This document shows, one piece after another, positions 1,812-38,222 of a stretch of DNA of 38,903 bases; the first letter of the stretch is position 1; the number at the start of each line of letters is the position of its first letter. The DNA comes from Clostridia bacterium (lineage in GTDB: Bacteria; Bacillota; Clostridia; Christensenellales; Aristaeellaceae): assembly GCA_030536295.1 (NCBI GenBank), contig JAUNQH010000018.1, forward strand, positions 1-38,903, given 5' to 3'. Below the pieces are notes generated by a model. The model searched no databases and was not told where the DNA came from. It saw nothing but the letters and a program-made list of their open reading frames with translations. The translations under genes and the position numbers were made by a program.

Positions 1812-1827
1812 AAGGAGCGTGACGGTA

Positions 1828-3674: not shown

Positions 3675-3677
3675 CCG

Positions 3678-5542: not shown

Positions 5543-5558
5543 CTGGGAGGCTTGAAAT

Positions 5559-7031: not shown

Positions 7032-7050
7032 TGCCGAAAGGAGCCGGAAA

Positions 7051-8511: not shown

Positions 8512-8579
8512 CGGTTTTCGCCGTGTTTACAGCATTCCACTAATACCGATCGGGTCCTTACGGACTCAAAGGAGGGCAT

Positions 8580-11703: not shown

Positions 11704-11859
11704 TGCTGTCAAATCTCCATTCTCTGTTGTTTTCCGTATCAGTATATTTTTCTGAGCCATATGCTGATATGATCACCTGAAATCGGATCTGTACACATTG
11801 CGGTCTTTTTCTCCCACAGTGCGACATCTTGTCCCGCGTCCGTTACAGCGCTGCGTATA

Positions 11860-16050: not shown

Positions 16051-16959
16051 TCAAAGCGACGCGATGTATCTTTCCAGCGCGTCGCGCCAGTCCGGCAGCG
16101 GTCTGAAGCCGTTTTCAGCCAGTTTCCGCTTGTCAAGTCTGCTGTTGAAAGGGCGTTTTGCCTTCGCGGCACCGTACTCCGCGGTCGTAACGGGAATGAC
16201 CTCGTTATCCGTCCCGGCGATCCGGAAGATCTCCCTGGCGAAATCATACCAGCTGATAAACCCGCCTTCATTGGTCGCATGGTAGACCCCGTAGCGGTCT
16301 GTCACGATCATATCCGCCAGCAGCCGCGCCAGATCCGCCGTATAAGTGGGGGTGCCGATCTGATCATTCACGACCCGCAGCACATGATGCGTCTTTCCGG
16401 CCTTCAGCATCGTCTTCACAAAATTGCTGCCGTTCTGCCCGAACACCCAGGCAATGCGCACAATAAAGAATTCACTCAGGCAGGCGCGCACAGCCATTTC
16501 ACCGGCCAGTTTCGTCTGTCCGTACACATTGAGCGGACTGTATGCCTCGTCATCCGGATCACGCGGTTCGGTACCCCGGCCGTCAAACACGTAATCGGTG
16601 GAGATCAGCATCATCTTCACGCCGTTTTCGGCGCATGCCTCCGCAAGATACTTCGGTCCGAGCGCGTTTACGGCATATACCGTTTCCCTGTTCTGCGGTT
16701 CTTCCGCCGCGTCGACCGCCGTCCAGGCCGCGCAGTGGATCACGGCGTCCGGCCCGGTCTCCCGGATCACGCGCGCAGCGGCTTCCCCGTCCGTAATATC
16801 CAGCGGTACATACGGCATGCCCGTTACGGGCGTACCGTCAGCCATACCCGCGTATGCCGGCGTGATATCGCTGCCGATGCCGTTTATGCCGCGGGACGCA
16901 AGTTCATTCATCACATCATGCCCGAGCTGACCGTTCACACCGGTCACAAGAATCGTCAT
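16051..16959 (-). CDS. rfbD: dTDP-4-dehydrorhamnose reductase
   Basis: 302 residues, normal length. It catalyses the last step of dTDP-L-rhamnose synthesis, NAD(P)H-dependent reduction of dTDP-4-keto-rhamnose. The N-terminal Rossmann motif is GVNGQLG (7-13), STDYVFDG is at 120-127, and the short-chain dehydrogenase pair is Tyr146/Lys150 (YGQTK). The later motif HATNEGGFISWYDFA fits RmlD. It is the last gene of the six-gene minus-strand operon and starts 12 bases after rfbB. Confidence 0.93.
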   Translation of the reverse strand: MTILVTGVNGQLGHDVMNELASRGINGIGSDITPAYAGMADGTPVTGMPYVPLDITDGEAAARVIRETGPDAVIHCAAWTAVDAAEEPQNRETVYAVNALGPKYLAEACAENGVKMMLISTDYVFDGRGTEPRDPDDEAYSPLNVYGQTKLAGEMAVRACLSEFFIVRIAWVFGQNGSNFVKTMLKAGKTHHVLRVVNDQIGTPTYTADLARLLADMIVTDRYGVYHATNEGGFISWYDFAREIFRIAGTDNEVIPVTTAEYGAAKAKRPFNSRLDKRKLAENGFRPLPDWRDALERYIASL

Positions 16960-16971
16960 CTCCGGGTCTCC

Positions 16972-17991
16972 TTATCTGTCTGAATACATACGTGAATAAT
17001 AATTGACATAATCGCCCGATGTGCATTCATCCATCCAGTCCGTATGTTCTGTATACCAGCGGATCGTCATCCGGATGCCGTCCGCGAACATGACGGTCGG
17101 CTGCCATCCCAGCTCACGGTTTGCCTTTGACGGATCAATGGCATAGCGGCGGTCATGCCCTTTTCTGTCCCCGACATAGGTGATCAGCGATTCCGGCTTG
17201 CCAAGCTCATGCAGGATCGTACGTACGATCTCAATGTTCGTTTTTTCGTTATGCCCTCCGAGATTATATATCTCGCCGATCCTTCCCTTTTCCAGAATGC
17301 TCAGGATGCCCCTGCAGTGGTCCTCCACGTACAGCCAGTCGCGCACATTCAGACCGTTTCCGTATACAGGCAGGTTCCTGTCATGCGTCGCGTTGTTGAT
17401 CATCAGCGGGATCAGTTTTTCGGGAAACTGGTACGGACCGTAATTGTTCGAGCAGCGTGAGACCGTCACCTGCAGGCCGAAAGTGCGGTGATACGCCAGT
17501 ACCAGCAGATCCGCTCCCGCCTTGGACGCGGAATAGGGAGATGATGTATGGATGGGCGTATCCTCCCGGAACAGCAGATCAGGCCGGTCCAGCGGCAGAT
17601 CGCCGTACACCTCGTCCGTACCCACCTGGTGAAAGCGTTTCACGTCATATTTCAGGCAGGCGTCCATCATCACCGCCGTACCCATCACATTGGTCTCCAG
17701 AAAGACGCCCGGATCCTCAATACTGCGGTCCACATGAGTTTCCGCGGCGAAGTTGACAACAGCATCCGGATGTTCCTTTTCAAAGATCGCGCAGATCGCG
17801 TCCCGATCGCGGATGTCCTCTTTATAAAACACGAAATTGCTGTTCTCCATGGCGCCGTTCAGCGTATGGATATTGGCAGCGTAGGTCAGCGCGTCCACGC
17901 ATACGACTTTCCATTCCGGACGTTCCCTGAGCAGCAGATAAATGAAATTCGACCCGATAAAACCGGCGCCTCCGGTCACAAGTATCGTCAT
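16972..17991 (-). CDS. rfbB: dTDP-glucose 4,6-dehydratase
   Basis: 339 residues. Second step of the rhamnose pathway: NAD-dependent conversion of dTDP-glucose to the 4-keto-6-deoxy sugar. The Rossmann motif is GGAGFIGSN (7-15). The catalytic Thr125-Asp126-Glu127 is in GTDEVYGD, and Tyr153/Lys157 in YSASK. SRCSNNYGPYQFPEKLIP is diagnostic for RmlB. It lies 16 bases after rfbC. Confidence 0.95.
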   Translation of the reverse strand: MTILVTGGAGFIGSNFIYLLLRERPEWKVVCVDALTYAANIHTLNGAMENSNFVFYKEDIRDRDAICAIFEKEHPDAVVNFAAETHVDRSIEDPGVFLETNVMGTAVMMDACLKYDVKRFHQVGTDEVYGDLPLDRPDLLFREDTPIHTSSPYSASKAGADLLVLAYHRTFGLQVTVSRCSNNYGPYQFPEKLIPLMINNATHDRNLPVYGNGLNVRDWLYVEDHCRGILSILEKGRIGEIYNLGGHNEKTNIEIVRTILHELGKPESLITYVGDRKGHDRRYAIDPSKANRELGWQPTVMFADGIRMTIRWYTEHTDWMDECTSGDYVNYYSRMYSDR

Positions 17992-18007: not shown

Positions 18008-18565
18008 TCAGAATTCGATCTTCTGCTCCCGCAGCGGGATCCGTTTCCGGTCCTGTTCCTTCAGCAGCACTTCGCCCACATCCGGCCATTCAATGCCGAC
18101 ATCCGGATCATTCCACGGAATTCCGCCCTCATCCTCCGGATGATACACATCGTCACACTTATAGGCAAACTCAGCGTAGTCGCTCACAACAACAAATCCA
18201 TGCGCGAACCCCCGCGGCACCATCAGCTGACGCCTGTTCTCCCCGGACAGGAGCACGCCGACCCATTTACCGTAAGTCTCCGACCCTTTCCGGAGATCCA
18301 CGGCAGCATCGAAGACCTCGCCCCTGATCACCCTGACCAGCTTCGCCTGCGGATGTTTCAGCTGGAAATGCATTCCGCGGAGAACGCCGTGCCGGCTGGC
18401 GCTCTGATTATCCTGAACGAATGTATAGTTCAGCCCTGCTTCACGGAAACTGCTTTCACTGTATGTTTCCATAAAGTATCCGCGCTCATCGCCGTAGTTC
18501 TTCACATCAATGATGTATACCCCTTTGATCTCCGTTTCGGTAAAGGTAAAATTGCCGACAGTCAT
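18008..18565 (-). CDS. rfbC: dTDP-4-dehydrorhamnose 3,5-epimerase
   Basis: 185 residues, family length. Cupin-fold epimerase of the third rhamnose step. The catalytic His66 lies in GVLRGMHFQ, and FDAAVDLRKGS, VPRGFAHGF and YHPEDEGGIPWNDP are all conserved. It lies only 4 bases after rfbA, so translation is probably coupled. Confidence 0.94.
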   Translation of the reverse strand: MTVGNFTFTETEIKGVYIIDVKNYGDERGYFMETYSESSFREAGLNYTFVQDNQSASRHGVLRGMHFQLKHPQAKLVRVIRGEVFDAAVDLRKGSETYGKWVGVLLSGENRRQLMVPRGFAHGFVVVSDYAEFAYKCDDVYHPEDEGGIPWNDPDVGIEWPDVGEVLLKEQDRKRIPLREQKIEF

Positions 18566-18569: not shown

Positions 18570-19457
18570 TCAGTACCTGACCTTTCCGTCCGCGACGGCC
18601 TTCAGATGCGTACCGTACGGACTTTTCCCGTATCTGCCCGCGGCTTCGAGCAGCTCATCCCTGCCGATCCATCCGTTGTTGTACGCGATCTCCTCGGGCG
18701 CGGATATCACGGTGTTCTGGCGTTTCTGTACCATACGCACAAAATCGGACGCGTCCAGCAGCGTGTCCATGGTGCCGGTATCCAGCCATGCGTATCCGCG
18801 GCCGAGGAGCTTTACATCCAGCAGCCCGTCCCGCAGATACATCTCATTGAGCGTGGTGATCTCCAGTTCATTGCGCGATGACGGCTTCACTTCATGCGCC
18901 CTTCCGCTGACGCCTGACGGATAGAAATACAGACCGGTCACGGCATAGCTGCTTTTCGGGCAGGCCGGTTTTTCCTCAATGGATACAGCCTTCCCCTCCT
19001 CATCGAACGCCACAACGCCGAACCGCTCCGGATCGTTCACATAATAACCGAATACGGTCGCCCTGCCGGCCTTTTCCGCGTCTGCCGCCGCCCGGCGCAG
19101 CGTTTCCCCGAAGCCATTCCCGTAGAAGATATTGTCTCCCAGCACCATAGCGCACGCGTCATGCCCGATGAATGTCTCCCCGATCAGAAACGCCTGCGCG
19201 AGCCCGTCCGGTGACGGCTGGACCGCGTAAGTCAGCCTTATCCCGAACTGGCTGCCGTCACCAAGCAGATCTTCAAAGCGGGGCGTGTCCGCCGGCGTGG
19301 AGATCACGAGAATATCCCTGATACCGGCCAGCATCAGCGTGCTGAGCGGATAATAGATCATCGGCTTGTCATACACGGGCAGCAGCTGTTTGGAGGTGAC
19401 CATCGTCAGCGGGTAAAGCCGCGTACCGGCGCCGCCGGCAAGAATAATGCCTTTCAT
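18570..19457 (-). CDS. rfbA: Glucose-1-phosphate thymidylyltransferase
   Basis: 295 residues. First step of dTDP-L-rhamnose synthesis, dTTP plus glucose-1-phosphate. The signature [21 protein letters not shown] (about 8-28) and the metal site LGDNIFYG (106-113) are typical of short RmlA enzymes. It follows the three-domain PEP mutase gene by 24 bases with AGGAGG ahead of the start. The gene order A-C-B-D is common in polysaccharide clusters. Confidence 0.95.
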
Positions 19458-19481: not shown

Positions 19482-21488
19482 TTATTCTTCGGGGATCAGA
19501 TTAATGATCTCCTTGATGGACATGCACATATCGTCGCATTCCTTGGCGCGGTGATTCGTAAGGATGGTGCGCGCCGCGTTCTGCATAGCCGGAAAGCCCG
19601 TCCGCGTAAGCTGGTTCGCGTAGATGATCACGTTTGCCCCGCGGGCCCTGAACTCGTCCTCGTATACGGTATTGAAGCTTGTCGGCACGAGCACGATCGG
19701 CGTTGCCGCGTCCCTTGCGCGGAACTTTTCAATAAACTCAAAGATCTCCGCCGGGTCCTTCTTCCGGCTGTGGATCATGATCGCGTCCGCCCCGGCGCGC
19801 GTATAGGCAAATGCCCGTTCCAGCGCGTCAGTCATGCCTTTTTCAAGGATCAAGCTTTCGATCCGCGCGCAGATCATGAAATCCGCCGTTTTCTGCGCCC
19901 GTTTTCCGGCAGTGATCTTCGCGCAGAAGTTTTCGGCCGAGTCCTGCGTCTGCTGAACTTCATTGCCGAAAAGGCTGTTTTTCTTAAGCCCCGTCTTATC
20001 TTCGATGATCACCATGGATACGCCCATGCGTTCAAGAGAGCGTACCGTGTAAACGAAATGCTCCGTCAGTCCGCCGGTATCCCCGTCAAAAATGATGGGT
20101 TTTGTGGTTACTTCCATGATATCGTCGATCGTACGGAAGCGGCTCGTCATGTCCACCAGTTCGATATCCGGCTTCCCCTTTGCGGTGGAATCACACAGCG
20201 ATGAGATCCACATCGCGTCAAACTGATAGGTCTTTCCATCCTGCAGCACGGTGGTTTTTTCGGCGATCAGCCCGGTTATGCCGCTGTGCGCCTCTATGGC
20301 GGTAACGCAGCCTTTCATCCCGATCAGCTTCCGCAGGCGTCCGCGGCGGCAGTCCGGCATCGCCAGCTGCGCGCGCGCGTGCTTTTCCAGCTCCTCATAC
20401 CGTTCATCCCTGGCATAGGGATATTCCACCAGCTGACCGCCGTACTCCGCGAGCACCGCGAGCACCTCATCGCGGATCGGCTTCTGCAGACCGGAGCGCC
20501 AGTCATCCCCGTGGACCACATAGTCCGGCTTCAGTTCCCGAAGGATCCCCGCGTAGCTCAGTGTTTTCTGTTCCACAACGCGATGAACACCGGCTATATT
20601 CTCAAACAGCGTTCTGCGTTCCTCGAACGGGATCATCGGAAACCGCTTGTATGAAGCAACGGCCGCGTCGGACAGCACGCCGACGGTCAGCCTCCCCAGT
20701 CTCTCCGCTTTGCGGATAATGGCAATGTGCCCGCTGTGCACCATATCGGTGGAAAAGCAGATATACACGCTCCTGTTTTCGATCTCCGCCAGGCGGACCT
20801 TCACCGCGGCAAGGTCCTCCGGCGTGTCTATCTCCGTACACAGCCTGCCGCCGGCATCAAACGCTTCGATCGCGCATTGGTCCGTCACGGTATTCAGCGC
20901 GTTCTCGGCATATACCTTTGTATTTCCGTTTCTGCAGAATCCGGCAATGGCGTCCGACCAGACCCTCCAATCCTTTTTGTTGAGCTTGTAAAGGGCCTGC
21001 GCTTCCATTGCGCTGTCAAAAAACTCAATGCCCACGGCCTTCACAAGCCCGTCTTTCACGACTGCCTTGAAATCCTTGTCCGGCAGCGCGGCGGTCGAAG
21101 AGACCTTCATGCAGCTGCCCGGGTTTTTCAGCATATCCTCAAGCACCGAAAACTCAAATACAAGGTCCCCGTGCATCAGCAGGATATCATCATCCAGATA
21201 TGCCAGCGCGCAATTGATCGAGTATATGTAATTCGTTTCCGCGTACAGGGGATTCTTTACGAAGGTGATGCGGATCGGCAGCTCAAGCGACGCGCAATAT
21301 TCGGTAAGGACCTCATCGAAATACCCTGTTGTTATCACGGCTTCCTTGATCCCGGCCTCGCACAGCAATGTCAGCTGCCGGCTGAGGATCGTTTCACGGG
21401 CGGAGATCCCGGTCATGCACTTCGGATGTTCGCTGGTCAGCGCACCCATCCGGTGCCCGAGACCCGAATTCAGAATCAATGCTTTCAT
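19482..21488 (-). CDS. Three-domain LicC-like / TagD-like / phosphoenolpyruvate mutase protein
   Basis: 668 residues. Domain 1 (1-235) is a nucleotidyltransferase of the LicC kind: LNSGLGHRMG at 7-15 and MHGDLVF at the metal site. Domain 2 (about 240-375) is a cytidylyltransferase fold with HSGH (251-254) and HGDDWRSG; the ISST-like motif I would expect near 357-366 is replaced by YPYARDERYE. Domain 3 (about 385-668) is PEP mutase: FDGDTGG (467-473) and IIEDKTGLKKNS (494-505) carry the Mg and phosphoryl-transfer residues. PEP mutase makes phosphonopyruvate, the entry step to nearly all C-P compounds. The gene sits inside the rhamnose operon. Phosphonopyruvate decarboxylase and 2-AEP transaminase genes are not in the window. 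Domain calls are firm; the final product is inferred. Confidence 0.88.
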   Translation of the reverse strand: MKALILNSGLGHRMGALTSEHPKCMTGISARETILSRQLTLLCEAGIKEAVITTGYFDEVLTEYCASLELPIRITFVKNPLYAETNYIYSINCALAYLDDDILLMHGDLVFEFSVLEDMLKNPGSCMKVSSTAALPDKDFKAVVKDGLVKAVGIEFFDSAMEAQALYKLNKKDWRVWSDAIAGFCRNGNTKVYAENALNTVTDQCAIEAFDAGGRLCTEIDTPEDLAAVKVRLAEIENRSVYICFSTDMVHSGHIAIIRKAERLGRLTVGVLSDAAVASYKRFPMIPFEERRTLFENIAGVHRVVEQKTLSYAGILRELKPDYVVHGDDWRSGLQKPIRDEVLAVLAEYGGQLVEYPYARDERYEELEKHARAQLAMPDCRRGRLRKLIGMKGCVTAIEAHSGITGLIAEKTTVLQDGKTYQFDAMWISSLCDSTAKGKPDIELVDMTSRFRTIDDIMEVTTKPIIFDGDTGGLTEHFVYTVRSLERMGVSMVIIEDKTGLKKNSLFGNEVQQTQDSAENFCAKITAGKRAQKTADFMICARIESLILEKGMTDALERAFAYTRAGADAIMIHSRKKDPAEIFEFIEKFRARDAATPIVLVPTSFNTVYEDEFRARGANVIIYANQLTRTGFPAMQNAARTILTNHRAKECDDMCMSIKEIINLIPEE

Positions 21489-21521: not shown

Positions 21522-23045
21522 TCAGTATTTCCGTCCGCGGCATGGATCGTAACGGATCTCGCCGTGCTTTCCGGCAAACAGCGCTTTATCCGCCGCGTCC
21601 CGTTTCTTGCCGCTCAGAAGCATCCCGTTCCGGCGGCACACCGCTTCGGCATACGGCGTATATATATGCCGCAGTCCCTGTTCTTTCAGCCGCAGGCAGA
21701 GGTCAACGGCGCCGAGTCCGGTCCTGAAACGCTCGTCAAAAGGAATGAACCGTTCCCTGCGGATCATCATCGCGCACGGACTGACCGCGCTCACATTGCG
21801 CGTCATATTCATCACATCGTGATATCCGCCCGCGCCGGCGTGAAGCCCTTCATATTCGCACTCCGCGATGCGCTCCGTCCCGATGATGAATCCGCCGTGA
21901 ACGATCCTGCCGCGCGCATCCGTCAATACGGGCGTCACCGCGCCGATGCCTTCCCGGGCAGCGTGTGAAAGCAATTCGTTCATGAATGTTTCACTGTGCC
22001 GGATATCCAGATCCATGTCCGCGAAAAACAGGTATTCCGCCGTGCTTTCCTTCGCTTTCCGGTTCAGTTCCGCGTATGCATCCGCCGAATCCGGATCAAA
22101 ACGGATAACATCCGTCATTACATTTCCCGGCGATTCATAGCGGACGCGGATCATATTTCCGCTGATGTTCACGGCGCATTTCTGCCCCAGCCGTTCCTCA
22201 TGCTCCTTCACGGCACGGCAGCCCGCGTCCCGGCACTGATCCAGTTTTCTGTGGCTGGCGGATGACTGCACTTCCCGCCAGCTGTACAGTATATACGGCA
22301 GATGAACGATCCTGTCCGTCTTCTCCGTCAGCCGCAGGATCAGGTCATGATCCTGCGACCCGTCAAATCCGCTCCGCAGTCCGCCGATGTCCCGCAGCAG
22401 CTGTGTACGCGCGACCAGCAGATGACAGACATAATTGCAGGCGTTCAGATCCTCGGGGCAGAAGTCCGGCTTATGATACGGATCCATAAAGTGTTTCCCG
22501 TCTTCCGTGATCCTGTCCTCATCGGAATACAACACATCCGGTCTCTCCCGCGCGATCGCTTCCGCAACGCGCCACAGCGCGTCCGGCGTCAGCAGGTCAT
22601 CATGATCGCACAGCGCCGCGTAGCTACCGGAAGCAAGCGTCAGCGCGTGATTGGTGTTTCCGGAGATCCCGTCGTTCGTTTCCGCGTGGGTCACCTTCAG
22701 CCGCGCGTCCTTCGCGGCGTATTCATCAAGGACCTCCGCCGTTTCCGGTCTCGTGCTTCCGCCGTCATACAGGATCGCTTCCATGCAGGTGTAGGTCTGC
22801 GCCAGCAGGGACTCCAGCAGCGCGCGCAGCATGCCCGGATCTGTATTGAAGACCGGGATCACAACGGAGATCAGTCCCGCTTCCGGCTGTGAAGCTTTCT
22901 GTTCGGCAAGTTCCGCCCCGTCCGGCATTTCCCTGCGGCGTTTCCGGTCATAGATGCCGAGAACGCGTTCCCCGGCCTTCCGGCAGCCCCGCCGGAGGGT
23001 CCACGCGATGCCGCGCTCCCGCGCATATTCCAGAATCCGTCGCAT
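21522..23045 (-). CDS. GT2-family glycosyltransferase, two-module type
   Basis: 507 residues. ATG 23045 is preferred (GGAGG 9 bases upstream) over an ATG at 23090. After a basic N-terminal region the GT-A core begins at ISVVIPVFNTDP (59-70). The nucleotide/metal motif is CDHDD (146-150), with YSDEDRI (173-179) and GSQDHDLILR (229-238). The C-terminal half (about 330-507) looks like a second, partial GT2 module (AEYLFFADMDLDIR, then GAVTPVLTDARGRIVHGGF), as in WsaE-like O-antigen or S-layer glycan transferases. It is the first gene of the PEP-mutase/rhamnose operon. Rhamnosyl transfer is plausible but not proven. Confidence 0.85.
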   Translation of the reverse strand: MRRILEYARERGIAWTLRRGCRKAGERVLGIYDRKRRREMPDGAELAEQKASQPEAGLISVVIPVFNTDPGMLRALLESLLAQTYTCMEAILYDGGSTRPETAEVLDEYAAKDARLKVTHAETNDGISGNTNHALTLASGSYAALCDHDDLLTPDALWRVAEAIARERPDVLYSDEDRITEDGKHFMDPYHKPDFCPEDLNACNYVCHLLVARTQLLRDIGGLRSGFDGSQDHDLILRLTEKTDRIVHLPYILYSWREVQSSASHRKLDQCRDAGCRAVKEHEERLGQKCAVNISGNMIRVRYESPGNVMTDVIRFDPDSADAYAELNRKAKESTAEYLFFADMDLDIRHSETFMNELLSHAAREGIGAVTPVLTDARGRIVHGGFIIGTERIAECEYEGLHAGAGGYHDVMNMTRNVSAVSPCAMMIRRERFIPFDERFRTGLGAVDLCLRLKEQGLRHIYTPYAEAVCRRNGMLLSGKKRDAADKALFAGKHGEIRYDPCRGRKY

Positions 23046-23095
23046 TGTCAATATCCTCCGAAAGTCCTTCCGGACCGCATAATATCTCATTTCAT

Positions 23096-27494: not shown

Positions 27495-27637
27495 ATCCGG
27501 GTCCTCCATCCGTAAGGGATTGGTAGTTGAATCGAATTCCGTTGCCGGACGTTTCCGTATGGACGGTCTGCGGCACTGCTCATCACATTGCGTACAATGT
27601 CAGCCGTCATCGGGATCATCCGGGTCCATACCGTATA

Positions 27638-30385: not shown

Positions 30386-30414
30386 TTGACACAAACCGCT
30401 GAATTCATTACAAT
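30386..30414 (+). promoter_or_regulatory. Promoter of the Wzy/GT4-LicD operon
   Basis: TTGACA (30386-30391), 17-bp spacer, TACAAT (30409-30414). Transcription would start near 30421, which rules out an upstream ATG for the first gene and supports the TTG at 30446. It is divergent from the surface-protein promoter about 80 bp away. Confidence 0.75.
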
Positions 30415-30445
30415 GATTACACTGATTTTAAGGGAGGAACAGGTA

Positions 30446-31591
30446 TTGAGATTCATCCGAAAAGGAGCAGAGGCGGTATCCAGGTTCTGCGTTTATCTGT
30501 TCCCGGCCGCGATCATCGCGTGCCTCTTCAGAACGTATCTTTCACTGCTGAGCCCGCACGTTCTGGGACTCGAATCGTTCAGATTGTCTCTGAATTCGGC
30601 TCTTATGCACATATGCTATGTCCCCCTGACGATCTCCGTCATCGCGGGCTGGCTGCTTCAGCCGAAACGCCTGCTGTATCAGCTGCCGGTACTGGCTTTT
30701 CTGCTGTACGTGCGGGATCATTTCTATTTTACGGGCGATCAGATGTTTGATCTGTTCCTGTTCGCGTTCGCGTCCGTCAATGCCGGCCGGAAGAGCGCGA
30801 TCCGTACGGCCGCGGCCGCGTGGGCCGCGCTGGCAGTGCTCACAGCCGTTCTGTACTGCACGGGGCAGACAAACAACGTGGTCCGTGTTTTCACATACGG
30901 CACCGGCTATTCCTTCGGTTTCAGCCATCCGAACACCACGGGGGCGGCGGCGCTGGCGCTCGTTCTGGTCCTCTGGGCGGCATTTTTCCGCGGCAAACAC
31001 GTGATCACCTTCATCGTATCCTGGTCCGCCGCCGCGGTGACTTATCTGATCTTTGCCAGCCGTACACCGGCGGTGATGCTGATCCTGTTTCCCATTGCCG
31101 ATCTGCTGCTCGAAGCGCTGTCCCGCAAAAGCGAAAAACTGCTGCCCCGCGCGATGGCGATCCTTCCCGTATGCTATTGTCTGGTCTCGGTCCTGCTGGT
31201 CGTGATCGCGATCGAAAGCCCCGGGCTCCTTTCCGGCAATCTTATGGCCCGCTTCACATACGCGGCGAAGGCGATCAAACAATGCGGCATCACATTCTTC
31301 GGCAACCCGACCGTGATCTATGAATGTGAAGGTATCGTGCTGGATAACCAGTACCTCAACTGGATCATTTACAGGGGCGTCATTCCGGCAGTGCTCGGGC
31401 TCGCGCTTGAAGTATACATGATGTACCGCTTCGCCAAAAACAAAGACCATACCGGCCTGGTCTGGGCATTCATCATGATCACCGCCGGGCTGATGGAAAA
31501 CGTTTATACCTGGCCTCTGTTTTTCCCCGCGCCGATGATCCTGTTCGCTGCCGTATCCGGAACAGCAAAAAAAGAACGGCTCCCCTCATGA
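30446..31591 (+). CDS. Wzy-like polysaccharide polymerase (multi-spanning)
   Basis: 381 residues. TTG 30446 is chosen: AGGGAGG (30431-30437) is 8 bases upstream, and an earlier ATG would overlap the promoter. About 10 hydrophobic helices are seen, with a central extracytoplasmic-type segment GYSFGFSHPNTTGAAAL, a pattern found in putative O-antigen/capsule polymerases. Wzy proteins join flipped undecaprenyl-linked repeat units outside the membrane. The sequence family is very diverse, so the call rests on topology, the HPNTTG motif and the neighbours (Wzx, priming transferase). It overlaps the next gene by 4 bases. Confidence 0.65.
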   Translation: MRFIRKGAEAVSRFCVYLFPAAIIACLFRTYLSLLSPHVLGLESFRLSLNSALMHICYVPLTISVIAGWLLQPKRLLYQLPVLAFLLYVRDHFYFTGDQMFDLFLFAFASVNAGRKSAIRTAAAAWAALAVLTAVLYCTGQTNNVVRVFTYGTGYSFGFSHPNTTGAAALALVLVLWAAFFRGKHVITFIVSWSAAAVTYLIFASRTPAVMLILFPIADLLLEALSRKSEKLLPRAMAILPVCYCLVSVLLVVIAIESPGLLSGNLMARFTYAAKAIKQCGITFFGNPTVIYECEGIVLDNQYLNWIIYRGVIPAVLGLALEVYMMYRFAKNKDHTGLVWAFIMITAGLMENVYTWPLFFPAPMILFAAVSGTAKKERLPS

Positions 31592-33483
31592 TCCCGCGTC
31601 GCGGTCCCTCTCCGGATGAAGAACGTGTGGCGTTCGTCATCGGGGGCACAACGATCAGCGGCGGCATGAAGATCGTATGCGAATATGCCAACGCGCTCCG
31701 CATGGCGGGCGCGTATGTCGTGATGCTCTGCACCGGGCCCGAAACGGGGCAGATGGAATGGTTCCCGGACCAGAAAGTCCCGGTGATCCCGTTCCGCGAG
31801 GCCCCGCGTGACTGGGATACCGTGATCACGACCTTCTGGCAGACAAACGAGTTCGCGGCCGGGCTGTCAGCAAAGCGCCGCGTCTATCTCGTGCAGTCCG
31901 ATGAACGCTGTTTCTATCCGCGCAATCCGTATCTGCGCCTGCGCGTCGCGAAAACATACCGGCAAAAGAACGTGGAATACCTCTGTGTTGCCGCGTGGAT
32001 GAAAAAATGGCTGAAGGACGAGTTCGGACAGAACGCTGAGCTCATCGTCAACGGGATCGATGTGAACGCCTTCGCGTCCGCGGTCCCGCTTATACCGAAA
32101 AGCGATCGTATCCGCGTTCTGATCGAGGGTGACGCGAACAGTTCCGTCAAAAACATTTCCGCCGCGATGGAGATCGCGCGCGGCATGGATATGGAGATCT
32201 GGCGCGTCAGTCCCGGCGCGGATCCCTCCGTGAATGAGGCGGACAGAGCTTTCAGCGCCGTTCCTGCCGGTGATATGCCCGGCATTTACAGGTCCTGTGA
32301 TATTCTGCTGAAAACAAGCCGTTTCGAAAGCTTCTGCCTGCCGGCGCTGGAAATGATGGCCGGGGGCGGTGTTGTGATCGCGGCCCGTACGCCGGGCGCG
32401 GAAGAACTGATCCGCCATGGGGAAAACGGATTTCTGTTCGATCAGAATGATACGGAGACAGCAAAGAAGCTCCTTGACGCGCTGCGTGATCCGGAATACC
32501 GTGAGCGGATCGGCAGCCGGGCCGCCGCGGACGCGGCCGGCTATTCACGTGAAGGCTCCATCCGGCACGCGTGCTCCTGGTTGCTGCCCGGCCAGAGATA
32601 CAAACGGTTTTTCAGGGAACACGCGGGATCCGCCAGACCGGACGCTGAAACGCTCAGGCAGATCTTTCTGAACATGCCCGCAGCGGAAGGGACCGCCCGG
32701 AAGATCCAGCTTTGCAACAATGATCTCCTGCAGCGGTTGAAGCGCGTATGCGACGCGAACAGCATTCCCTTTTTCCTGCTGTGGGGAACACTGCTCGGCA
32801 GCGTCCGTCACCGCGGCTTTATCCCATGGGACGATGATATCGATATCGGCATGATGCGGCAGGATCTGCTGAAGCTGAAAGACGTCATCCGGGATGATCC
32901 GGTGCTGAGGCTCGATATGGCCTACAACTGGGGGCTCGGCGGTATCTGCTGGAAGGTCCGGTATCGCGTGTGCGGCTCCTTCTGGGTCGACATCTTTCCG
33001 TATGAAACGTTCGAAGACGATCCGTCCGAAGACCGCGCCGCGATGATCCGCGAAGCCTCCGCACGCTACCAGCGCCGGCGTCTGCGCGCTGTGCGGCGAT
33101 ATTATCACACACGTAAGCCGTGTCTCGCCGCGGTATCCGACCCGCGTGTGGACAGGCTCTGTGAAGGCGCGCGGACCGCGCTTGAAAAAGAGCTGCCTTT
33201 CCTCGGGCGCGGCGATAAGCTGATCCTGAGCCCGGACGCGAATCCGCAGCTCGCAAAACCGCCCGTTCCGTACAGCAGCTTCTTCCCGCTGCAAAAAAAC
33301 AGTTCCCCTTTTGAAGGAGAACTGTATGATACGATCCGCGATCCGGAAGCCTGGCTGGAATCACTTTACGGGGATTATATGACGCTTCCCGGGGACATCA
33401 CGCCGAAGCATGAGGCGGAATCGTTGTCCCGCGCGGAAGAGGACCTGAAAAAGCTCGCGGATGCCGGTCTCATTTCTTTCTGA
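31588..33483 (+). CDS. GT4 glycosyltransferase fused to a LicD phosphotransferase domain
   Basis: 631 residues. The N-terminal part (about 12-345) is a GT-B glycosyltransferase: GGTTISGGMKIVCEYANAL near the start and the Glu247-x7-Glu255 motif in RFESFCLPALEMMAGG. The C-terminal part (about 375-610) is LicD: LLWGTLLGSVRHRGF followed by IPWDDDIDIGM (412-422), and SFWVDIFPYE (464-473). LicD enzymes transfer phosphocholine or similar groups from a CDP-activated donor to a glycan, so one protein may add a sugar and then its phospho-substituent. ATG 31588 overlaps the wzy stop. Its 3' end overlaps the convergent wzx gene by 14 bases. Confidence 0.88.
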   Translation: MIPRRGPSPDEERVAFVIGGTTISGGMKIVCEYANALRMAGAYVVMLCTGPETGQMEWFPDQKVPVIPFREAPRDWDTVITTFWQTNEFAAGLSAKRRVYLVQSDERCFYPRNPYLRLRVAKTYRQKNVEYLCVAAWMKKWLKDEFGQNAELIVNGIDVNAFASAVPLIPKSDRIRVLIEGDANSSVKNISAAMEIARGMDMEIWRVSPGADPSVNEADRAFSAVPAGDMPGIYRSCDILLKTSRFESFCLPALEMMAGGGVVIAARTPGAEELIRHGENGFLFDQNDTETAKKLLDALRDPEYRERIGSRAAADAAGYSREGSIRHACSWLLPGQRYKRFFREHAGSARPDAETLRQIFLNMPAAEGTARKIQLCNNDLLQRLKRVCDANSIPFFLLWGTLLGSVRHRGFIPWDDDIDIGMMRQDLLKLKDVIRDDPVLRLDMAYNWGLGGICWKVRYRVCGSFWVDIFPYETFEDDPSEDRAAMIREASARYQRRRLRAVRRYYHTRKPCLAAVSDPRVDRLCEGARTALEKELPFLGRGDKLILSPDANPQLAKPPVPYSSFFPLQKNSSPFEGELYDTIRDPEAWLESLYGDYMTLPGDITPKHEAESLSRAEEDLKKLADAGLISF

Positions 33484-34897
33484 CCGCGCGGATGATCCCG
33501 GCGATCCGTTTGCGGAGCACAACGGCGGATACGATCATGGCAAGCAGGATCCCGTAGCGCACCGCCGGCATCCCGTACAGGAGCCCGCCGGTCAGACTGA
33601 TCACGATCATGACGGCGCTCATGCACAGGATCTGCTTCATATTGTAGATATCTCTGCCGACCGCGCGCCGCATCACGATATAGTCGATCACCGCCTGAAC
33701 GATATAGCTGATCAGCGTGGTATAACCCGCCGCCGCGTAACCGTATTTCCGGATAAACACATAATTCAGCACCAGATTCAGAACGGTCGCCGTTACGGAA
33801 CCCGCCATGACACCGGCGGGCTTTTTATAATAATAAAGGATATTCGCGTAAATGTAGTACTGCACCTGAAAAAACAGGCCGCCGATGATCGGCGGGATCA
33901 CATTCACCGCTTCCATATAATGCTCATTGGAAACAATGCGGACGACCTCCGGCGCGAACAGGATAAGCGCCGTACAGCACAAGCCGAACAAAAGCAGGAT
34001 CGGTCTTGTGAACCTGTCGATCGCGGAAAAATCTTCCGTTTTGCATTTTTCATAGGTATACGGAAGCAGGGACGAGTTGACAGCGGTCCACACCACCAGT
34101 ACCACCGCGGCCGTGGTATGCGCCACGCTGTAATACGCGACGGCGGTATCGCCGACAAGATGCTCGATCATCAGCTTGTCCGAGCTTGACAGCAGATAGG
34201 TCGACAGATAGTGCGGGATCAGCGGCAGATTGAACAGAATGGCCGCTTTCCAGTATTCCGTCTTCACCCGGAAACGGTTGCGGATACCGAGATAAAGATG
34301 GAAGCCGGCATAGATCGCGATCATTGTCAGCTCCATCCCGAAGAGCCGGGGATAAAGCCGTTCACCCTCAGGCGCCGCGCATACCGCGATGATCGAGACC
34401 ACAGGCGCCGCGACCGCGAGCAGCAGCGAAAAAAAGATCACCGCTTTGTATCTGTACTCATACCGCTGCCATGTCTGCCACAGGTTGAACGCCGGCTGCA
34501 CCAGAAACAGACCGCACATCAGCAGCACAAGGCGCAGATCCATTTTCAGCAAGTCCTTCAGCACGGGATACAAAAGCAGCAGGACCGCTGAAAAAACAAG
34601 TGTGATCAGATTGGACAGGATCAGCATTGAATAGGTATATCCGTTCCGGTCTTCCGGATGCTCGACCATTCCGTTGTTGAACACGCCGTAGGACAGGCAG
34701 AACATGGCAATGATCCCGAGCACCTGCACCCAGGTCAGAAAAGCAGAGGCCTGACCGAACTCTTCCGGAGAAAGCATGTTCGTGAAAACGGGCGTGGTGA
34801 TATATCCCATGCCCAGCGAGATCACGCCGGCAAAGAAATAGGCCGCCGATGCTTTCACACCCGCGGACAGTCCCCGCCATTTCTCCAGCAGCTTCAA
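33470..34897 (-). CDS. Wzx-like polysaccharide flippase (MATE/PST superfamily)
   Basis: 475 residues with about 12-14 helices. TTG 34897 (AAAGGGGAT 7 bases upstream) is preferred over an ATG at 34930 that would overlap the preceding gene. The start ASAAYFFAGVISLGMGYITTPVFTNMLSPEEFGQ is typical of polysaccharide_synt family exporters. Wzx moves undecaprenyl-diphosphate-linked oligosaccharide repeat units across the membrane for Wzy polymerisation. It is last in the minus-strand operon after the DUF4422 gene. Confidence 0.85.
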   Translation of the reverse strand: MKLLEKWRGLSAGVKASAAYFFAGVISLGMGYITTPVFTNMLSPEEFGQASAFLTWVQVLGIIAMFCLSYGVFNNGMVEHPEDRNGYTYSMLILSNLITLVFSAVLLLLYPVLKDLLKMDLRLVLLMCGLFLVQPAFNLWQTWQRYEYRYKAVIFFSLLLAVAAPVVSIIAVCAAPEGERLYPRLFGMELTMIAIYAGFHLYLGIRNRFRVKTEYWKAAILFNLPLIPHYLSTYLLSSSDKLMIEHLVGDTAVAYYSVAHTTAAVVLVVWTAVNSSLLPYTYEKCKTEDFSAIDRFTRPILLLFGLCCTALILFAPEVVRIVSNEHYMEAVNVIPPIIGGLFFQVQYYIYANILYYYKKPAGVMAGSVTATVLNLVLNYVFIRKYGYAAAGYTTLISYIVQAVIDYIVMRRAVGRDIYNMKQILCMSAVMIVISLTGGLLYGMPAVRYGILLAMIVSAVVLRKRIAGIIRAVRKK

Positions 34898-34919
34898 GGC
34901 CGATCCCCTTTCTCCGGTC

Positions 34920-35678
34920 TTACCGGGCACTGAATTTACGTTTCAGGAAGCGCCATATCTTCACGGGCCAGTTCTGCTTTTCGGTGAACACCACCGGGCA
35001 TTCCGAATATCCGATCCGCTCTGCCTCAAGCCACACATCCGTCAGCCGTTCGGCCACATAGCCGAAAACACGCCTGTCCTTCTCGCTGTATCCGGAAATG
35101 TCCAGCCGTTTTTCCAGTTCAAAAAGCACCGGAAACAGAAATTCATTATATCTGAGGAAATACGCCTTTGTCATCAGAAACATATTGAACCGATGCCCGC
35201 TGCGCCGGTCCATCACCCTGTCAAACGCGGCCGTGTACCGCTGACCGTACATCTCACCGAGGATCTCCCTTGTGCGGATCAGATCCTCTTCATGATGCGC
35301 GTGCACATACTGGGACCGGTTGGTCTCGACCCAGTAATGCCTCTTTTTCGGCAGAATGACTGAGGAGCCCGCCAGAAGCGTTTTCAGCGCTTCCCCGCTC
35401 AGGATCCGCTCCTTTTTCGGTTTGATGAATGCGTGCGAAGCGAAATAGCGCCTGTAATGGCACAGCCCGTACGCGTCCGCTTCATGGTTCTTCCACAGCC
35501 AGTACTGCACTGTCAGCTCGCAGAAACCCGGGTTTTTGTCTGAAATGTGTTCGCCCGCATTGTCCGCCGCGATCCCGAAGCTTTCCTTTCCTTCCGCGCC
35601 CGCCTGCACCGGCAGGTATACCGGATCCGGCGGGAACGTGTAAGGTTTATGCGAAGCGACAGCCACGATCAGGTCCAT
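34920..35678 (-). CDS. DUF4422 glycan-biosynthesis protein
   Basis: 252 residues. ATG 35678 is favoured because GGGAGG directly abuts an ATG at 35684 and is properly spaced (6 bases) for 35678. It has the domain start IVAVASHKPY and the core ADNAGEHISDKNPGFCELT followed by YWLWKNHEADAYGLCHYRRYF, the DUF4422 signature. Members are common in capsule and exopolysaccharide clusters and are thought to be glycosyltransferases, but the reaction is unknown. It lies 14 bases after glf. Confidence 0.85.
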   Translation of the reverse strand: MDLIVAVASHKPYTFPPDPVYLPVQAGAEGKESFGIAADNAGEHISDKNPGFCELTVQYWLWKNHEADAYGLCHYRRYFASHAFIKPKKERILSGEALKTLLAGSSVILPKKRHYWVETNRSQYVHAHHEEDLIRTREILGEMYGQRYTAAFDRVMDRRSGHRFNMFLMTKAYFLRYNEFLFPVLFELEKRLDISGYSEKDRRVFGYVAERLTDVWLEAERIGYSECPVVFTEKQNWPVKIWRFLKRKFSAR

Positions 35679-35692
35679 CTTCATCCTCCCTG

Positions 35693-36805
35693 TCAGAGCA
35701 ATTCCGGCACTTTCAGCGCCTCGGCGACAACACGGTCCATATCAAGATACCGGTATGTTCCGAGACGGCCGCCGAACAAAACCTTCTCTTCCTTCTCAGC
35801 GAGCGCGCGGTACCGGCTGTATAACGCCCCGTTTCCGTCATCGTTCACGGGATAATACGGTTCATCACCCGGTTTCCATTCGGAGCTGTATTCACGGCTG
35901 ATCACAGTACCGTGCACAGGATCCCCCGCGCCGTTCAGGCCGAAATTGAACCATTTGTGTTCAATGATCCGGGTCCACGGAGTCTCACGGTCCGTATAAT
36001 TCACAACAGCATTGCCCTGATAATCATCCGTATCCGGATATTCCCGTTCAAAGCGCACCGTACGGTATTCCAGAGGACCGTACCTGTAACCGTAAAACGC
36101 GTCGATCGGACCGGTATATATCACATGCTCCGCCATGGCGTCATACCGCTCACGGTTCTGCAGATAATCCGTTCCGGTCCTGATCTCCGCGCCCGCCAGC
36201 ATCCGCCCGATCATCGCGGTATAGCCGTCCTTCGGAATGCCCTGATACGCGGCGTCAAAATAGCTGCTATCCCGGCTGAAGCGTACCGGCAGTCTGCGGA
36301 TGATGAATGCCGGCAGATCCCTGCATTCCCGCCCCCACTGTTTTTCCGTATACCCTTTTACCAGCTTTTCATAAATATCCGTTCCGACCAGTGAGATCGC
36401 CTGTTCCTCAAGATTCCGCGGTTCTCCGCAGCCGTGAGCCGTTCTTTGTTTTTCAATGATCGCTTTTGCCTCATCCGGCGTTGATACATTCCACAGTTCG
36501 GAGAATGTCAGCATCGTGAACGGCAGCGAGTAGATCTCACCGTGATAATTGGCTTTCGGCATATTGACAAAGCCGTTGAATTCCGCGAAGCGGTTCACAT
36601 AAGCCCACACGTTCCCATCATTTGTATGAAAGATATGCGGACCATACACATGGACCTGTATACCATGATCATCTTCAGTATATATGTTGCCGCCGATGTG
36701 GTCCCGCTTTTCCAGCACAAGCACGCGCATCCCGCGTTCGGCCAGCTGCTGCGCGGCAACAGCTCCGTACAGCCCGGCCCCGACGATCACGGCATCATAC
36801 ATCAT
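35693..36805 (-). CDS. glf: UDP-galactopyranose mutase
   Basis: 370 residues, normal length. The FAD-dependent enzyme converts UDP-galactopyranose to UDP-galactofuranose, the donor for Galf residues in surface glycans. The dinucleotide motif is VIVGAGLYGAVAAQQL, followed by EKRDHIGGNIYTEDDHGI and VHVYGPHIFHT. The late segment YTGPIDAFYGYRYGPLEYR is diagnostic. The start may be the first or second Met (36805 or 36802). It overlaps the preceding transferase gene by 11 bases. Confidence 0.95.
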   Translation of the reverse strand: MMYDAVIVGAGLYGAVAAQQLAERGMRVLVLEKRDHIGGNIYTEDDHGIQVHVYGPHIFHTNDGNVWAYVNRFAEFNGFVNMPKANYHGEIYSLPFTMLTFSELWNVSTPDEAKAIIEKQRTAHGCGEPRNLEEQAISLVGTDIYEKLVKGYTEKQWGRECRDLPAFIIRRLPVRFSRDSSYFDAAYQGIPKDGYTAMIGRMLAGAEIRTGTDYLQNRERYDAMAEHVIYTGPIDAFYGYRYGPLEYRTVRFEREYPDTDDYQGNAVVNYTDRETPWTRIIEHKWFNFGLNGAGDPVHGTVISREYSSEWKPGDEPYYPVNDDGNGALYSRYRALAEKEEKVLFGGRLGTYRYLDMDRVVAEALKVPELL

Positions 36806-38222
36806 CGTCTGTCCTGCCTTTCGCGTGTTTGCTTTCCCGGATCACGACCTCGGAATTGATCATTCCGCCGAAGACGGTAGACCACATGATCCTCAGATCA
36901 AGCTCCGGCGACCAGTCATCGATATATTCAAGATCCAGCTTCACACGCTCGGTGATACTGGTATCACCGCGGTAGCCGTTTACCTGGGCAAGCCCGGTTA
37001 TGCCCGGCCGCACCTGCTGGCGCACCAGATAACGCGGGATCTCATTCTTGAAATGATCGATATGATAAGGGATCTCGGGCCGCGGACCGACAACGCTCAT
37101 ATCGCCGCGAAGCACATTGAAAAACTGCGGCAGCTCATCCAGACTGAATTTACGGATAAAGCTTCCAAACTTTGTTTTGCGCGGATCGCCGTCCGTGCTC
37201 CAGCCGGTCGATTCCGATCCGGTCACCCGCATACTGCGGAATTTATACATGTTGAACAGCTTTTTACCGCGACCCATCCGTTCCTGTTTGAAAATAACGG
37301 GACCCGGGCTTGAGATCTTCACACCCGCCGCGATGATCAGCATCAGCGGACTGAGCGCGATCAGCGCGAATACGGAGATCAGGATGTCCGTCGAGCGCTT
37401 GAGAAGCGCGTTGGACGGATCATCCAGCGGTGTGGCTCTCAGATCCACGAGACGCGTGTTGCCGATCACACCGATCGTCGGATGCTTCGGATAGTAGTCA
37501 TTGAAGAAAGGGATCATTTCGACATAAGTTCCTTCCTTGTCCGCCGCAGCCAGGATCATCGGCAGAAACTTGGTCTCATGCGATTCCAGCGCCACCACGA
37601 TCCCATCGTATGCCCCTTTCTCAAGGATCTCCGCCAGCTGCTCATAGCTGCCGAGACATACGCCCATTTCCGGGCGGACGGAAGCGCTCACATAGCCGTC
37701 CACGCGGATACCGCAGAAGAAGTTTTCCTCAACATCCTTCAGATATCCCGCCGCGGAGGAACCGTTGCCCACAACGATAAAGTGTTTGAGATTCCGTCCC
37801 TTTGACCGGAGAACATGTAAAAGCGCATGCAGAATGATGTGTTTCAGGCTGATCAGCACGGAACACATCAGCCATCCGATCACGATCGCCAGGCGGGACA
37901 TATCGATCTGCCGGAATACGAACATTGCCGCCATCAGGATCAGCACGCAGCCGCCGCATGCCGCAAAAATGCGCACGGTGTTGCTTCCGGCCATTTTAAG
38001 CCGCTGCGGCGCGTAAAGACGGAAAAGGAACAGCACACCCGTATTCAACGCGGCGAAAAGCGCCGCATATACGATTATCTCACCGGCTGTCAGATCCAGA
38101 CTCAATATGCCGTCCAGCACAACATAACGGATATTCCACGCGATGATGCAAGCGATCCACAGAATGACAAAATCGGAGATCACATTGATCGCGTTCAGGA
38201 TCGACTGGTTCTTTTTGATCAC
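36795..38222 (-). CDS. Polyprenyl-phosphate glycosylphosphotransferase (WcaJ/WbaP-type priming enzyme)
   Basis: 475 residues, starting at GTG 38222 with GGGAGGGG upstream. It has four N-terminal helices, then a CoA-binding-like domain (about 130-255), then the C-terminal bacterial sugar transferase domain: LKRSTDILISVFALIALSPL, FKQERMGRGKKLFNMYKFRSM, DELPQFFNVLRGDMSVVGPRP and RPGITGLAQVNGYRG. Such enzymes place the first sugar-1-phosphate (Glc, Gal or similar) on undecaprenyl phosphate. It is the first gene of the minus-strand operon with glf, DUF4422 and wzx. Confidence 0.92.
   Translation of the reverse strand: MIKKNQSILNAINVISDFVILWIACIIAWNIRYVVLDGILSLDLTAGEIIVYAALFAALNTGVLFLFRLYAPQRLKMAGSNTVRIFAACGGCVLILMAAMFVFRQIDMSRLAIVIGWLMCSVLISLKHIILHALLHVLRSKGRNLKHFIVVGNGSSAAGYLKDVEENFFCGIRVDGYVSASVRPEMGVCLGSYEQLAEILEKGAYDGIVVALESHETKFLPMILAAADKEGTYVEMIPFFNDYYPKHPTIGVIGNTRLVDLRATPLDDPSNALLKRSTDILISVFALIALSPLMLIIAAGVKISSPGPVIFKQERMGRGKKLFNMYKFRSMRVTGSESTGWSTDGDPRKTKFGSFIRKFSLDELPQFFNVLRGDMSVVGPRPEIPYHIDHFKNEIPRYLVRQQVRPGITGLAQVNGYRGDTSITERVKLDLEYIDDWSPELDLRIMWSTVFGGMINSEVVIRESKHAKGRTDDDV

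Follow-up and report, generated by a model that had tools for sequence, protein, structure and literature searches.

A triple-fusion PEP mutase as a candidate enzyme of phosphonate tailoring at a rhamnose-containing polysaccharide locus of a Clostridia bacterium

The window, a stretch of 38,903 nucleotides from a Clostridia bacterium, encodes a PEP mutase fused to two nucleotidyltransferase domains. It appears that this protein is the entry-and-activation enzyme of phosphonate tailoring for a rhamnose-containing surface polysaccharide, with the phosphonate most likely being 2-hydroxyethylphosphonate (HEP); the probability of this reading is put at roughly 0.6. Comparative evidence from related sequences suggests HEP rather than the better-known aminoethylphosphonate (AEP), added by what would be a modular form of an established route.

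Architecture and neighbourhood of the triple fusion

The gene (ppm) and its three domains are arranged as follows.

19482-21488, (-) strand: triple-fusion PEP mutase gene (PntC/LicC-like nucleotidyltransferase, Fom1-like cytidylyltransferase and PEP mutase), ATG start, 668 aa
20784..21488, (-) strand: N-terminal LicC/PntC-like nucleotidyltransferase domain, residues 1-235, with GLGxR...PK, D108, E219, D221 and H106
20364..20777, (-) strand: PF01467 cytidylyltransferase domain, roughly residues 238-375; nearest solved structure 5x3d (Fom1 CyTase domain)
19485..20336, (-) strand: PEP mutase domain, residues 385-668, with EDKTGLKKNS

A Shine–Dalgarno-like AAGGAG lies 5′ of the ATG start. In the 668-aa protein, Pfam matches PF12804 (NTP_transf_3) at residues 3-121 (34.8 bits, cut-off 27), PF01467 (CTP_transf_like) at residues 248-342, which contain DMVHSGH (45.4 bits, cut-off 21), and PF13714 (PEP_mutase) at residues 385-643 (180.4 bits, cut-off 31.5). 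The open reading frame and these scores bear out the initial annotation of a LicC-like domain, an HSGH-type cytidylyltransferase and a PEP mutase in one chain. By curated score and motif, the C-terminal domain is a PEP mutase. It reaches 397.4 bits with the NCBIfam model TIGR02320 (curated cut-off 319.55), and the E, D, K, N and S of its EDKxxxxxNS signature are invariant in 43/43 aligned sequences; the NCBIfam models for phosphonopyruvate hydrolase and methylisocitrate lyase stay far under their own cut-offs with this protein. The middle domain, with its HxGH motif, lies N-terminal to the PEP mutase (Ppm) and has Fom1 as its nearest relative among solved structures. The N domain is LicC-like and carries the nucleotide and metal motifs, its GxGxR, K23, D108, E219 and D221 being invariant in 43/43 aligned sequences.

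A relative of the triple fusion is encoded by 105 genome-contig stretches, and 68 of the best 80 match residues 1-668. These full-span relatives and the Pfam scores rule out the domains as a product of chance or truncation.

The following genes surround ppm. The domains, motifs and neighbours given here were computed directly.

21522-23090, (-) strand: GT2 glycosyltransferase, 522 aa, 33 bp upstream of ppm; Pfam over cut-off
18570..19457, (-) strand: rmlA, glucose-1-phosphate thymidylyltransferase (TIGR01207, 454 bits)
18008..18565, (-) strand: rmlC, dTDP-4-dehydrorhamnose 3,5-epimerase (TIGR01221)
16972..17991, (-) strand: rmlB, dTDP-glucose 4,6-dehydratase (TIGR01181)
16051..16959, (-) strand: rmlD, dTDP-4-dehydrorhamnose reductase (TIGR01214)
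30386..31591, (+) strand: membrane protein with 7 hydrophobic segments and no Pfam match; possible Wzy-type polymerase
31588-33483, (+) strand: GT1-LicD fusion, 631 aa (PF04991 75.8 bits, PF00534 67.1 bits); candidate enzyme for adding the CMP-activated phosphonate to a sugar
33470..34930, (-) strand: Wzx-type flippase (Polysacc_synt)
34920..35684, (-) strand: DUF4422 protein, presumably a glycosyltransferase
35693..36805, (-) strand: UDP-galactopyranose mutase (GLF)
36795..38222, (-) strand: initiating sugar-phosphate transferase (Bac_transf)

The ppm, GT2, rmlA, rmlC, rmlB and rmlD genes share a strand with gaps of 4-33 bp, and the rml genes score over their NCBIfam cut-offs. The operon with GT2 and rfbACBD was thus correctly recognized at the outset. 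Homologues of the GT2 gene are also present in three loci of the genus (L001, L065 and L126). The GT1-LicD gene and the polysaccharide locus lie 10 kb from ppm, with LicD on the opposite strand; the GT1-LicD protein carries a 20-residue stretch (letters not shown). LicD-like genes were found near only 37 of 81 sequences, a lower bound given the limited query set.

Proposed pathway and the supply of its enzymes

In the proposed pathway, the C-terminal domain would convert PEP to phosphonopyruvate. Phosphonopyruvate decarboxylase (Ppd), acting in trans, would decarboxylate this to phosphonoacetaldehyde and drive the reaction forward, and an iron alcohol dehydrogenase of the PhpC kind (Fe-ADH), also in trans, would reduce the aldehyde to HEP. 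The Fom1-like middle domain would activate HEP to CMP-HEP, the LicD protein would attach the phosphonate to one of the repeat unit's sugars, and the decorated unit would be exported by the Wzx/Wzy-like machinery. Each of these enzymatic steps is inferred, as are HEP as the product, the acceptor sugar and the availability of Ppd and Fe-ADH to the window's strain. The earlier proposal of a rhamnose glycan bearing a phosphonate stands in so far as nucleotidyl activation and LicD-type transfer fit the anatomy of the window; the architecture itself, however, was already known.

Among the best 80 of the 105 relatives, 70 loci extend at least 4 kb downstream, and Ppd and Fe-ADH both adjoin the gene in 64 of them. 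Linked genes were called by tblastn; antisense shadow ORFs hid Ppd from ORF picking in some loci. The parts are also found re-fused in relatives, as NTP-CTP-ADH (L130/L132), NTP-ADH (L078) and ADH-LicD (L013). These reshuffled fusions, which like the co-occurrence were computed directly, appear to tie the pathway steps together.

Within the genus, Ppd scores over its cut-off in 36 of 45 genomes. In 21 of the 28 genomes with both enzymes over cut-off, no Ppd lies within 10 kb of Ppm on the same contig. The expectation that a trapping enzyme is encoded elsewhere therefore agrees with much of the genus, but no Ppd was found in the window's own assembly (G000, 67% complete), nor in that of the nearest sister (G032/L001, 64% complete). 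The suggested genome search for Ppd or an AEP transaminase likewise returned neither from the own genome, although it did return an Fe-ADH with the cluster-ADH signature (G000:C5). This enzyme is below the TIGR03405 cut-off and only 36-38% identical to the cluster ADHs. Since Ppd and a related Fe-ADH both occur in 7 of the 8 genus genomes without Ppm, these genes may serve something else.

It could be proposed that the window's strain and G036 have no Ppd, and that phosphonopyruvate, or another product formed from it by an unrecognized enzyme, is used directly, which would make the end product a phosphonate other than AEP or HEP. G036 is 97% complete and contains the triple fusion, and Ppd is absent from it while the genes that flank Ppd elsewhere are there. 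G036 and G021 both show a rearranged Ppd block that lacks Ppd itself; in G048 nothing occupies the position of Ppd, and in G013 no Ppd comes after CapA. Against this, G021 holds partial Ppd matches elsewhere, and the window's Ppm nests among alleles that mostly adjoin Ppd. The two low-completeness assemblies, G000 and G032, also lack orthologues of the Ppd-adjacent genes CapA, u175 and phosphoglucomutase, which fits missing sequence, and the region after RodA is in a different order in both. Because these neighbours are also missing and the order after RodA differs, loss of Ppd in the window's species is left as a possibility. Such an alternative fate of phosphonopyruvate is considered unlikely.

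Identity of the phosphonate

The published Pnt route offers a different product, an AEP-decorated glycan formed by way of PnPy, PnAA, AEP and CMP-AEP followed by transfer. In PMC6697681, the tailoring loci under study code for AEP synthesis, and the two PntC enzymes, which are LicC-like, prefer AEP. However, none of the 45 genus genomes, the own 67%-complete one included, has an AEP transaminase over the TIGR03301 cut-off, and only 1 of 50 genomes drawn from the best 80 of the 105 loci does (48 carry the triple fusion; L078 and L080 encode the domains as separate chains). The single positive is Bacteroides cutis, where the gene lies ~78 kb off on the same contig. When the best 80 of 105 loci were searched by tblastn with the transaminase, only L027 and L053 gave a match, weak in both cases (23-25% identity); the window, L130 and L132 gave none. 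Fe-ADH takes the place of the transaminase at related loci, and AEP as the first-choice product was set aside on the transaminase counts. A non-homologous or unrecognized transaminase could still supply AEP.

The pocket of the N domain bears on the same question. Tde-PntC contacts the AEP amine by Glu104 and Glu196 (PMC6697681). H106 of the N domain occupies the E104 position in 43/43 aligned sequences, whereas the conserved E195 corresponds to E196. One of the two acidic amine contacts is thus retained, as an AEP route would have it, and the pocket is only half changed. The transaminase counts, the Fe-ADH neighbours and the His at the E104 position together make an AEP-decorated glycan quite unlikely.

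The preference for HEP was also examined in an independent phylum control, which was split by whether the cytidylyltransferase (C) domain is at least 48% identical to that of the window or of another type. Among the six loci of the first group, Fe-ADH is present in 5/6 and AEP transaminase in 0/6; in the nine loci of other types, the transaminase is present in 9/9 and Fe-ADH in 0/9. The remaining HEP-type locus, L198, has neither within reach. Four of the five control Fe-ADHs share no more than 29-34% identity with the cluster enzymes. A motif check found the cluster-ADH signature in L209 only; L197 and L207 have a variant of it, and L196 and L204 lack it. The C-domain tree separates the HEP-type and AEP-type control groups at an SH-aLRT of 100, with 2 label changes among 32 labelled rows (L041 left out). 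The PEP-mutase tree is less clean, with 3 label changes among 34 labelled rows (L041 left out); in it L197, which carries Fe-ADH, is placed apart from the AEP-type rows, and L130 among them. L130 contains Fe-ADH even though the CyTase joined to its Ppm is of the AEP type.

Judged by its intact motifs, the PntC/LicC-like N domain is a second nucleotidyltransferase that co-travels with HEP-type loci. As 5 of the 9 AEP-type control loci show distant LicC-like matches (25-31% identity), having two such enzymes may not set HEP loci apart. Their distinctive feature is the close nucleotidyltransferase pair of the window's kind.

Most likely, horizontal transfer brought in the window's allele, which lacks the neighbours that usually accompany it. 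Like the L001 allele, it falls outside the main clade of the genus (AU p 0.0001, quick tree), a foreign position that was computed directly. That the gene is a stranded acquisition, expressed but functionless after loss of the linked ppd and adh that both alleles lack, is very unlikely given that the catalytic motifs of all three domains are intact, the operon is tight with a Shine–Dalgarno-like sequence, and the triple fusion is intact in two species at 95% identity.

A wider form of the HEP reading is tentative and somewhat doubtful. It holds that many rumen and gut anaerobes (Clostridia, Lachnospiraceae, Bacteroidales) place HEP, not AEP, on surface glycans by a freely re-fused modular kit of Ppm, Ppd, Fe-ADH, two nucleotidyltransferases and LicD, with the HEP branch relying on a Fom1-like cytidylyltransferase paired with a newly specific PntC-like enzyme. 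A phosphonate donor of a doubly activated or two-step kind, undescribed so far, would follow from this pair. To our knowledge, few bacterial phosphonate products are known. If the HEP reading is right, a whole Ppm architecture would gain a product, HEP, from sequence. HEP-glycans would be predicted in common gut and rumen bacteria, including the cultured Hungatella hathewayi DSM 13479 and Ruminococcus flavefaciens 007c, both relatives with the linked locus. It also raises the question as to the role of the second, PntC-like nucleotidyltransferase in an AEP-free pathway.

Comparison with known systems

HEP-bearing glycans occur in organisms other than the window's. The phosphonoglycans of Glycomyces and Stackebrandtia reportedly contain HEP, and we know of no triple-fusion or LicD route for these or for the HEP glycans of marine matter. 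In marine dissolved organic matter, HEP and methylphosphonate are esterified to polysaccharide (PMC9381506). Most bacterial phosphonate capacity is thought to be destined for cell surfaces (PMC6697681). A search of open-licence papers for HEP in combination with LicD returned PMC6697681 alone.

The three-domain fusion is not new, as 42 triple-fusion proteins were already counted among 1485 Ppm (Rice et al. 2019, PMC6697681). These share PF12804, PF01467, PF13714 and the EDKxxxxxNS motif with the window protein. The class appears to be given no product there, and the main text of that study makes no mention of an alcohol dehydrogenase, whereas here it is tied to Ppd, Fe-ADH and reshuffled fusions.

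The window protein has the CyTase-PEP mutase fusion in common with Fom1 of fosfomycin biosynthesis in Streptomyces wedmorensis, and Fom1 5x3d is the best PDB match of the middle domain (120 residues, E 1e-40). Fom1 is a HEP cytidylyltransferase, with HEP as its substrate (PMC6697681). As described there, Fom1 bears a single CyTase domain at its N terminus and belongs to an antibiotic pathway, whereas the window protein has an additional N domain of the PntC kind and is encoded at a polysaccharide locus. This N domain shares its sequence family and its nucleotide and metal motifs with PntC (Treponema denticola Tde1415, 6pd1; Atopobium rimae) and LicC (1jyk). PntC, with its E104 amine contact, is fused to an AEP transaminase; the N domain of the window instead has an invariant His, is fused to Ppm, and co-occurs with Fe-ADH.

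The fusion protein and its locus

The open reading frame at 19482-21488(-), for which the initial annotation had proposed three domains in one chain, is real, and so is the architecture. It encodes 668 amino acids from an ATG start with AAGGAG upstream, and NTP_transf_3, CTP_transf_like and PEP_mutase all score above the Pfam cut-off. The PEP mutase (Ppm) model TIGR02320 gives 397.4 bits against a cut-off of 319.55, and the domain has an intact EDKTGLKKNS signature. The closest solved structures are LicC (1jyk) and PntC (6pd1) for the N-terminus, the Fom1 cytidylyltransferase (CyTase) domain 5x3d for the middle domain (E 1e-40, domain searched alone), and PEP mutases for the C-terminus. The window protein is a real, intact fusion of a known type.

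By their coordinates, the gaps from ppm through GT2, rmlA, rmlC, rmlB and rmlD are 4-33 bp. The window also encodes an initiating sugar transferase, a flippase, a DUF4422 protein, UDP-galactopyranose mutase, a membrane protein of 7 segments as a possible polymerase, and the following:

Window 31588-33483: fusion of GT1 and LicD

The gene content resembles that of a Wzx/Wzy-type locus for a surface polysaccharide, and the GT1-LicD fusion is a candidate for its phosphonate transferase.

Elsewhere in the window, a 1234-aa secreted protein with repeated Ig-like domains (23805-27509) adjoins an 868-aa protein (27638-30244) with no Pfam match. Proteins related to this pair lie in the same order beside the ppm operon of L001, the locus of the nearest sister genome (G032). 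A second NTP_transferase-family protein adjoins a small Ig-domain protein (10798-11760 and 11860-12924), with homologues of both in L001. MNHE, MnhB/MbhE and Proton_antipo_M proteins are encoded at 1200-10604, from a scan covering two of four antiporter-like ORFs; this is an Mrp/Mbh-like antiporter or hydrogenase-type membrane module.

Linked enzymes and the predicted product

A genome_contigs scan returned 105 stretches encoding a relative, and the best 80 of the 105 were kept as loci. Most of them are MAGs of Clostridia, Lachnospiraceae and Bacteroidales from rumen and gut, and the named organisms include Hungatella hathewayi, Ruminococcus flavefaciens and Bacteroides cutis. Linkage was counted by tblastn in the 70 loci with at least 4 kb downstream, the 10 shorter ones being left out. 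Phosphonopyruvate decarboxylase (Ppd) and an iron alcohol dehydrogenase (Fe-ADH) both lie within 4 kb of the gene in 64 of the 70; two loci have only Ppd (L041, L055), two only Fe-ADH (L046, L067) and two neither (L001, L065). The last two belong to the window's genus, and the genome of L065 (G044) carries Ppd elsewhere. In the window itself, tblastn found neither gene. Counting the window with the 80 loci, at least 37 of the 81 sequences have a LicD-like gene in their available flanks. Since the phosphonoacetaldehyde reductase PhpC is described in the available part of PMC9381506 as related to Fe-alcohol dehydrogenases, the pair of Ppd and Fe-ADH reads as synthesis of 2-hydroxyethylphosphonate (HEP).

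The same domains also occur in other fusions:

L130 15774-18020: N and C nucleotidyltransferase domains (NTP-CTP) fused to Fe-ADH
L078 12421-14160: N domain (NTP) fused to Fe-ADH
L013 13159-15465: Fe-ADH fused to LicD (PF04991, 152.6 bits)

The first of these, 748 aa long, is found in L130 (G010; Pfam run on this locus) and L132 (G039), whose Ppm bears a different CyTase. A long ORF similar to the Fe-ADH-LicD fusion is cut by the contig end in L012, the Pfam scan covering L013 only. L080 encodes the N domain as a gene of its own (236 aa) preceding CTP-Ppm, and in L079 this domain was not found in the available flanks. As these fusions join all five in varying combinations, they support a predicted single pathway for Ppm, CyTase, the PntC-like domain, Fe-ADH and LicD.

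The aminoethylphosphonate (AEP) transaminase TIGR03301 is above cut-off in none of 45 genus genomes. Among the 80 loci, 50 were selected for the same check of their genomes: 48 have the triple fusion, and two (L078, L080) have the domains on separate chains. One of the 50 is positive, Bacteroides cutis, where the gene shares a contig with ppm at a distance of approximately 78 kb. Searching the 80 loci and the window by tblastn with this transaminase gave two weak matches, L027 and L053, at 23-25% identity.

An independent control drew on 398 phylum genomes, 16 with Ppm including the window's own, and the loci of the other 15 were fetched and searched. In six of them (L196, L197, L198, L204, L207, L209) the C domain shares at least 48% identity with that of the window. 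Fe-ADH is nearby in five of these, and AEP transaminase in none. Four of the five Fe-ADHs share no more than 29-34% identity with the cluster enzymes (those encoded beside ppm in relatives). A motif check found the cluster signature in full in L209 alone; L197 and L207 carry a variant of it, and it was not found in L196 or L204. An N-type nucleotidyltransferase (41-65%) occurs in five of the six, fused in L209 and otherwise a separate gene or contig-end piece. L198, whose contig stops just before the C domain, shows no Fe-ADH, AEP transaminase or N-type nucleotidyltransferase within reach. Where the C domain is 41-45% identical (L199-L203, L210), AEP transaminase is present in 6/6 loci and Fe-ADH in 0/6; loci without a C domain (L205, L206, L208) give 3/3 and 0/3. 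Distant LicC-like matches (25-31%) also occur in five of the nine transaminase loci. In the C-domain tree the two CyTase groups separate at SH-aLRT 100, L130 alone crossing between them, and the PEP-mutase tree needs three changes, with L197 outside and L130 inside the AEP-type rows. HEP is the best predicted product of the triple-fusion pathway.

Partner enzymes in the genus and origin of the window allele

Ppm is above cut-off in 36 of the 45 genus genomes, Ppd in 36 and both in 28. Ppd lies within 10 kb of Ppm in seven of the 28 (G010, G017, G024, G028, G039, G045, G051); in the other 21, many assemblies being fragmented, there is none within that distance on the same contig. The two genes are 1.7 Mb apart in G009 (single contig) and 1.5 Mb in G029 (two contigs). 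The initial annotation had placed a trapping enzyme elsewhere in the genome, which fits the unlinked Ppd of these 21 genomes, but none was found in the window's own (G000). Ten fetched regions share a conserved genus block:

L119 6848-13403: Lrp, aminotransferase, CapA-like protein, Ppd, u175 (a 175-aa protein), phosphoglucomutase; matching regions L120-L125 and L133-L135

As Ppd is also present in seven of the eight genus genomes without Ppm, its retention is not due to Ppm alone, and it may have a second role.

Nine genus genomes, G000 and G032 among them, have either a Ppd match below cut-off or none. Orthologues of CapA, u175 and phosphoglucomutase were also not found in G000 (67% complete) and G032 (64% complete), and the gene order after RodA differs, so that loss of Ppd and missing assembly are inseparable in these two. 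G036 (97% complete), with a triple-fusion Ppm (L128 = G036:C18), has no Ppd match, and the rest of the block is present, partly inverted (L175 = G036:C36). It is the strongest case for a putative other phosphonopyruvate sink.

An Fe-ADH 34-43% identical to the cluster enzyme (at least 150 bits, linked class excluded) is found in 40 of 45 genus genomes, the window's own included (G000:C5:12564-13613, L179), and in all seven with Ppd and no Ppm. The signature DAL[AS]QGIES / TTAAHAMSY / AHGHA, which closely resembles the one in the cluster enzymes, is present in 12/12 aligned genus rows (11 genes, one twice); it is absent from four other Fe-ADHs of two of the aligned genomes and partial in a fifth (L190). 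The top NCBIfam match of L179 is TIGR03405, below cut-off, and its neighbourhood looks like housekeeping. It carries Gln at what we take to be the second metal-ligand His, a change shared by many, not all, cluster enzymes.

A tree of the CTP-Ppm region has one main genus clade, of six alleles. Those of the window and L001 fall outside this clade, within a set of loci from rabbit gut, Bacteroidales and other sources, and the genus alleles L128 and L184 take still other positions. A single group of the 10 genus sequences is rejected with an AU p of 0.0001 (quick tree). Horizontal acquisition is the most likely origin of the window ppm, which is now part of a GT2-rml operon without ppd and adh. 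Its pathway partners would be encoded in trans, the Ppd of the strain itself being putative, and HEP would be joined by LicD to a rhamnose-containing glycan. The enzymatic steps of this HEP route are predictions from sequence.

Comparison with known phosphonate systems

In its available part, Rice et al. 2019 (PMC6697681) counts 42 Ppm fused to both PF12804 and PF01467 (2.8% of 1485), so the three-domain architecture is not new. That part argues that phosphonate tailoring as a rule involves nucleotidyl activation; alcohol dehydrogenase is not mentioned in the main text, where HEP appears solely in connection with Fom1. A search of open-licence literature for HEP combined with LicD returned this paper and no other.

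The N domain was aligned for the window and 42 chosen loci, L064 being left out for an internal stop. The GxGxR nucleotide motif, K23, D108, E219 and D221 are invariant in all 43, and the domain therefore looks catalytically active. In PntC, Glu104 contacts the AEP amine (PMC6697681, available part). This position is His106 in 43/43 N domains and that of PntC Glu196 is still Glu (Glu195) in 43/43, thus the pocket appears altered from that of PntC, though not wholly.
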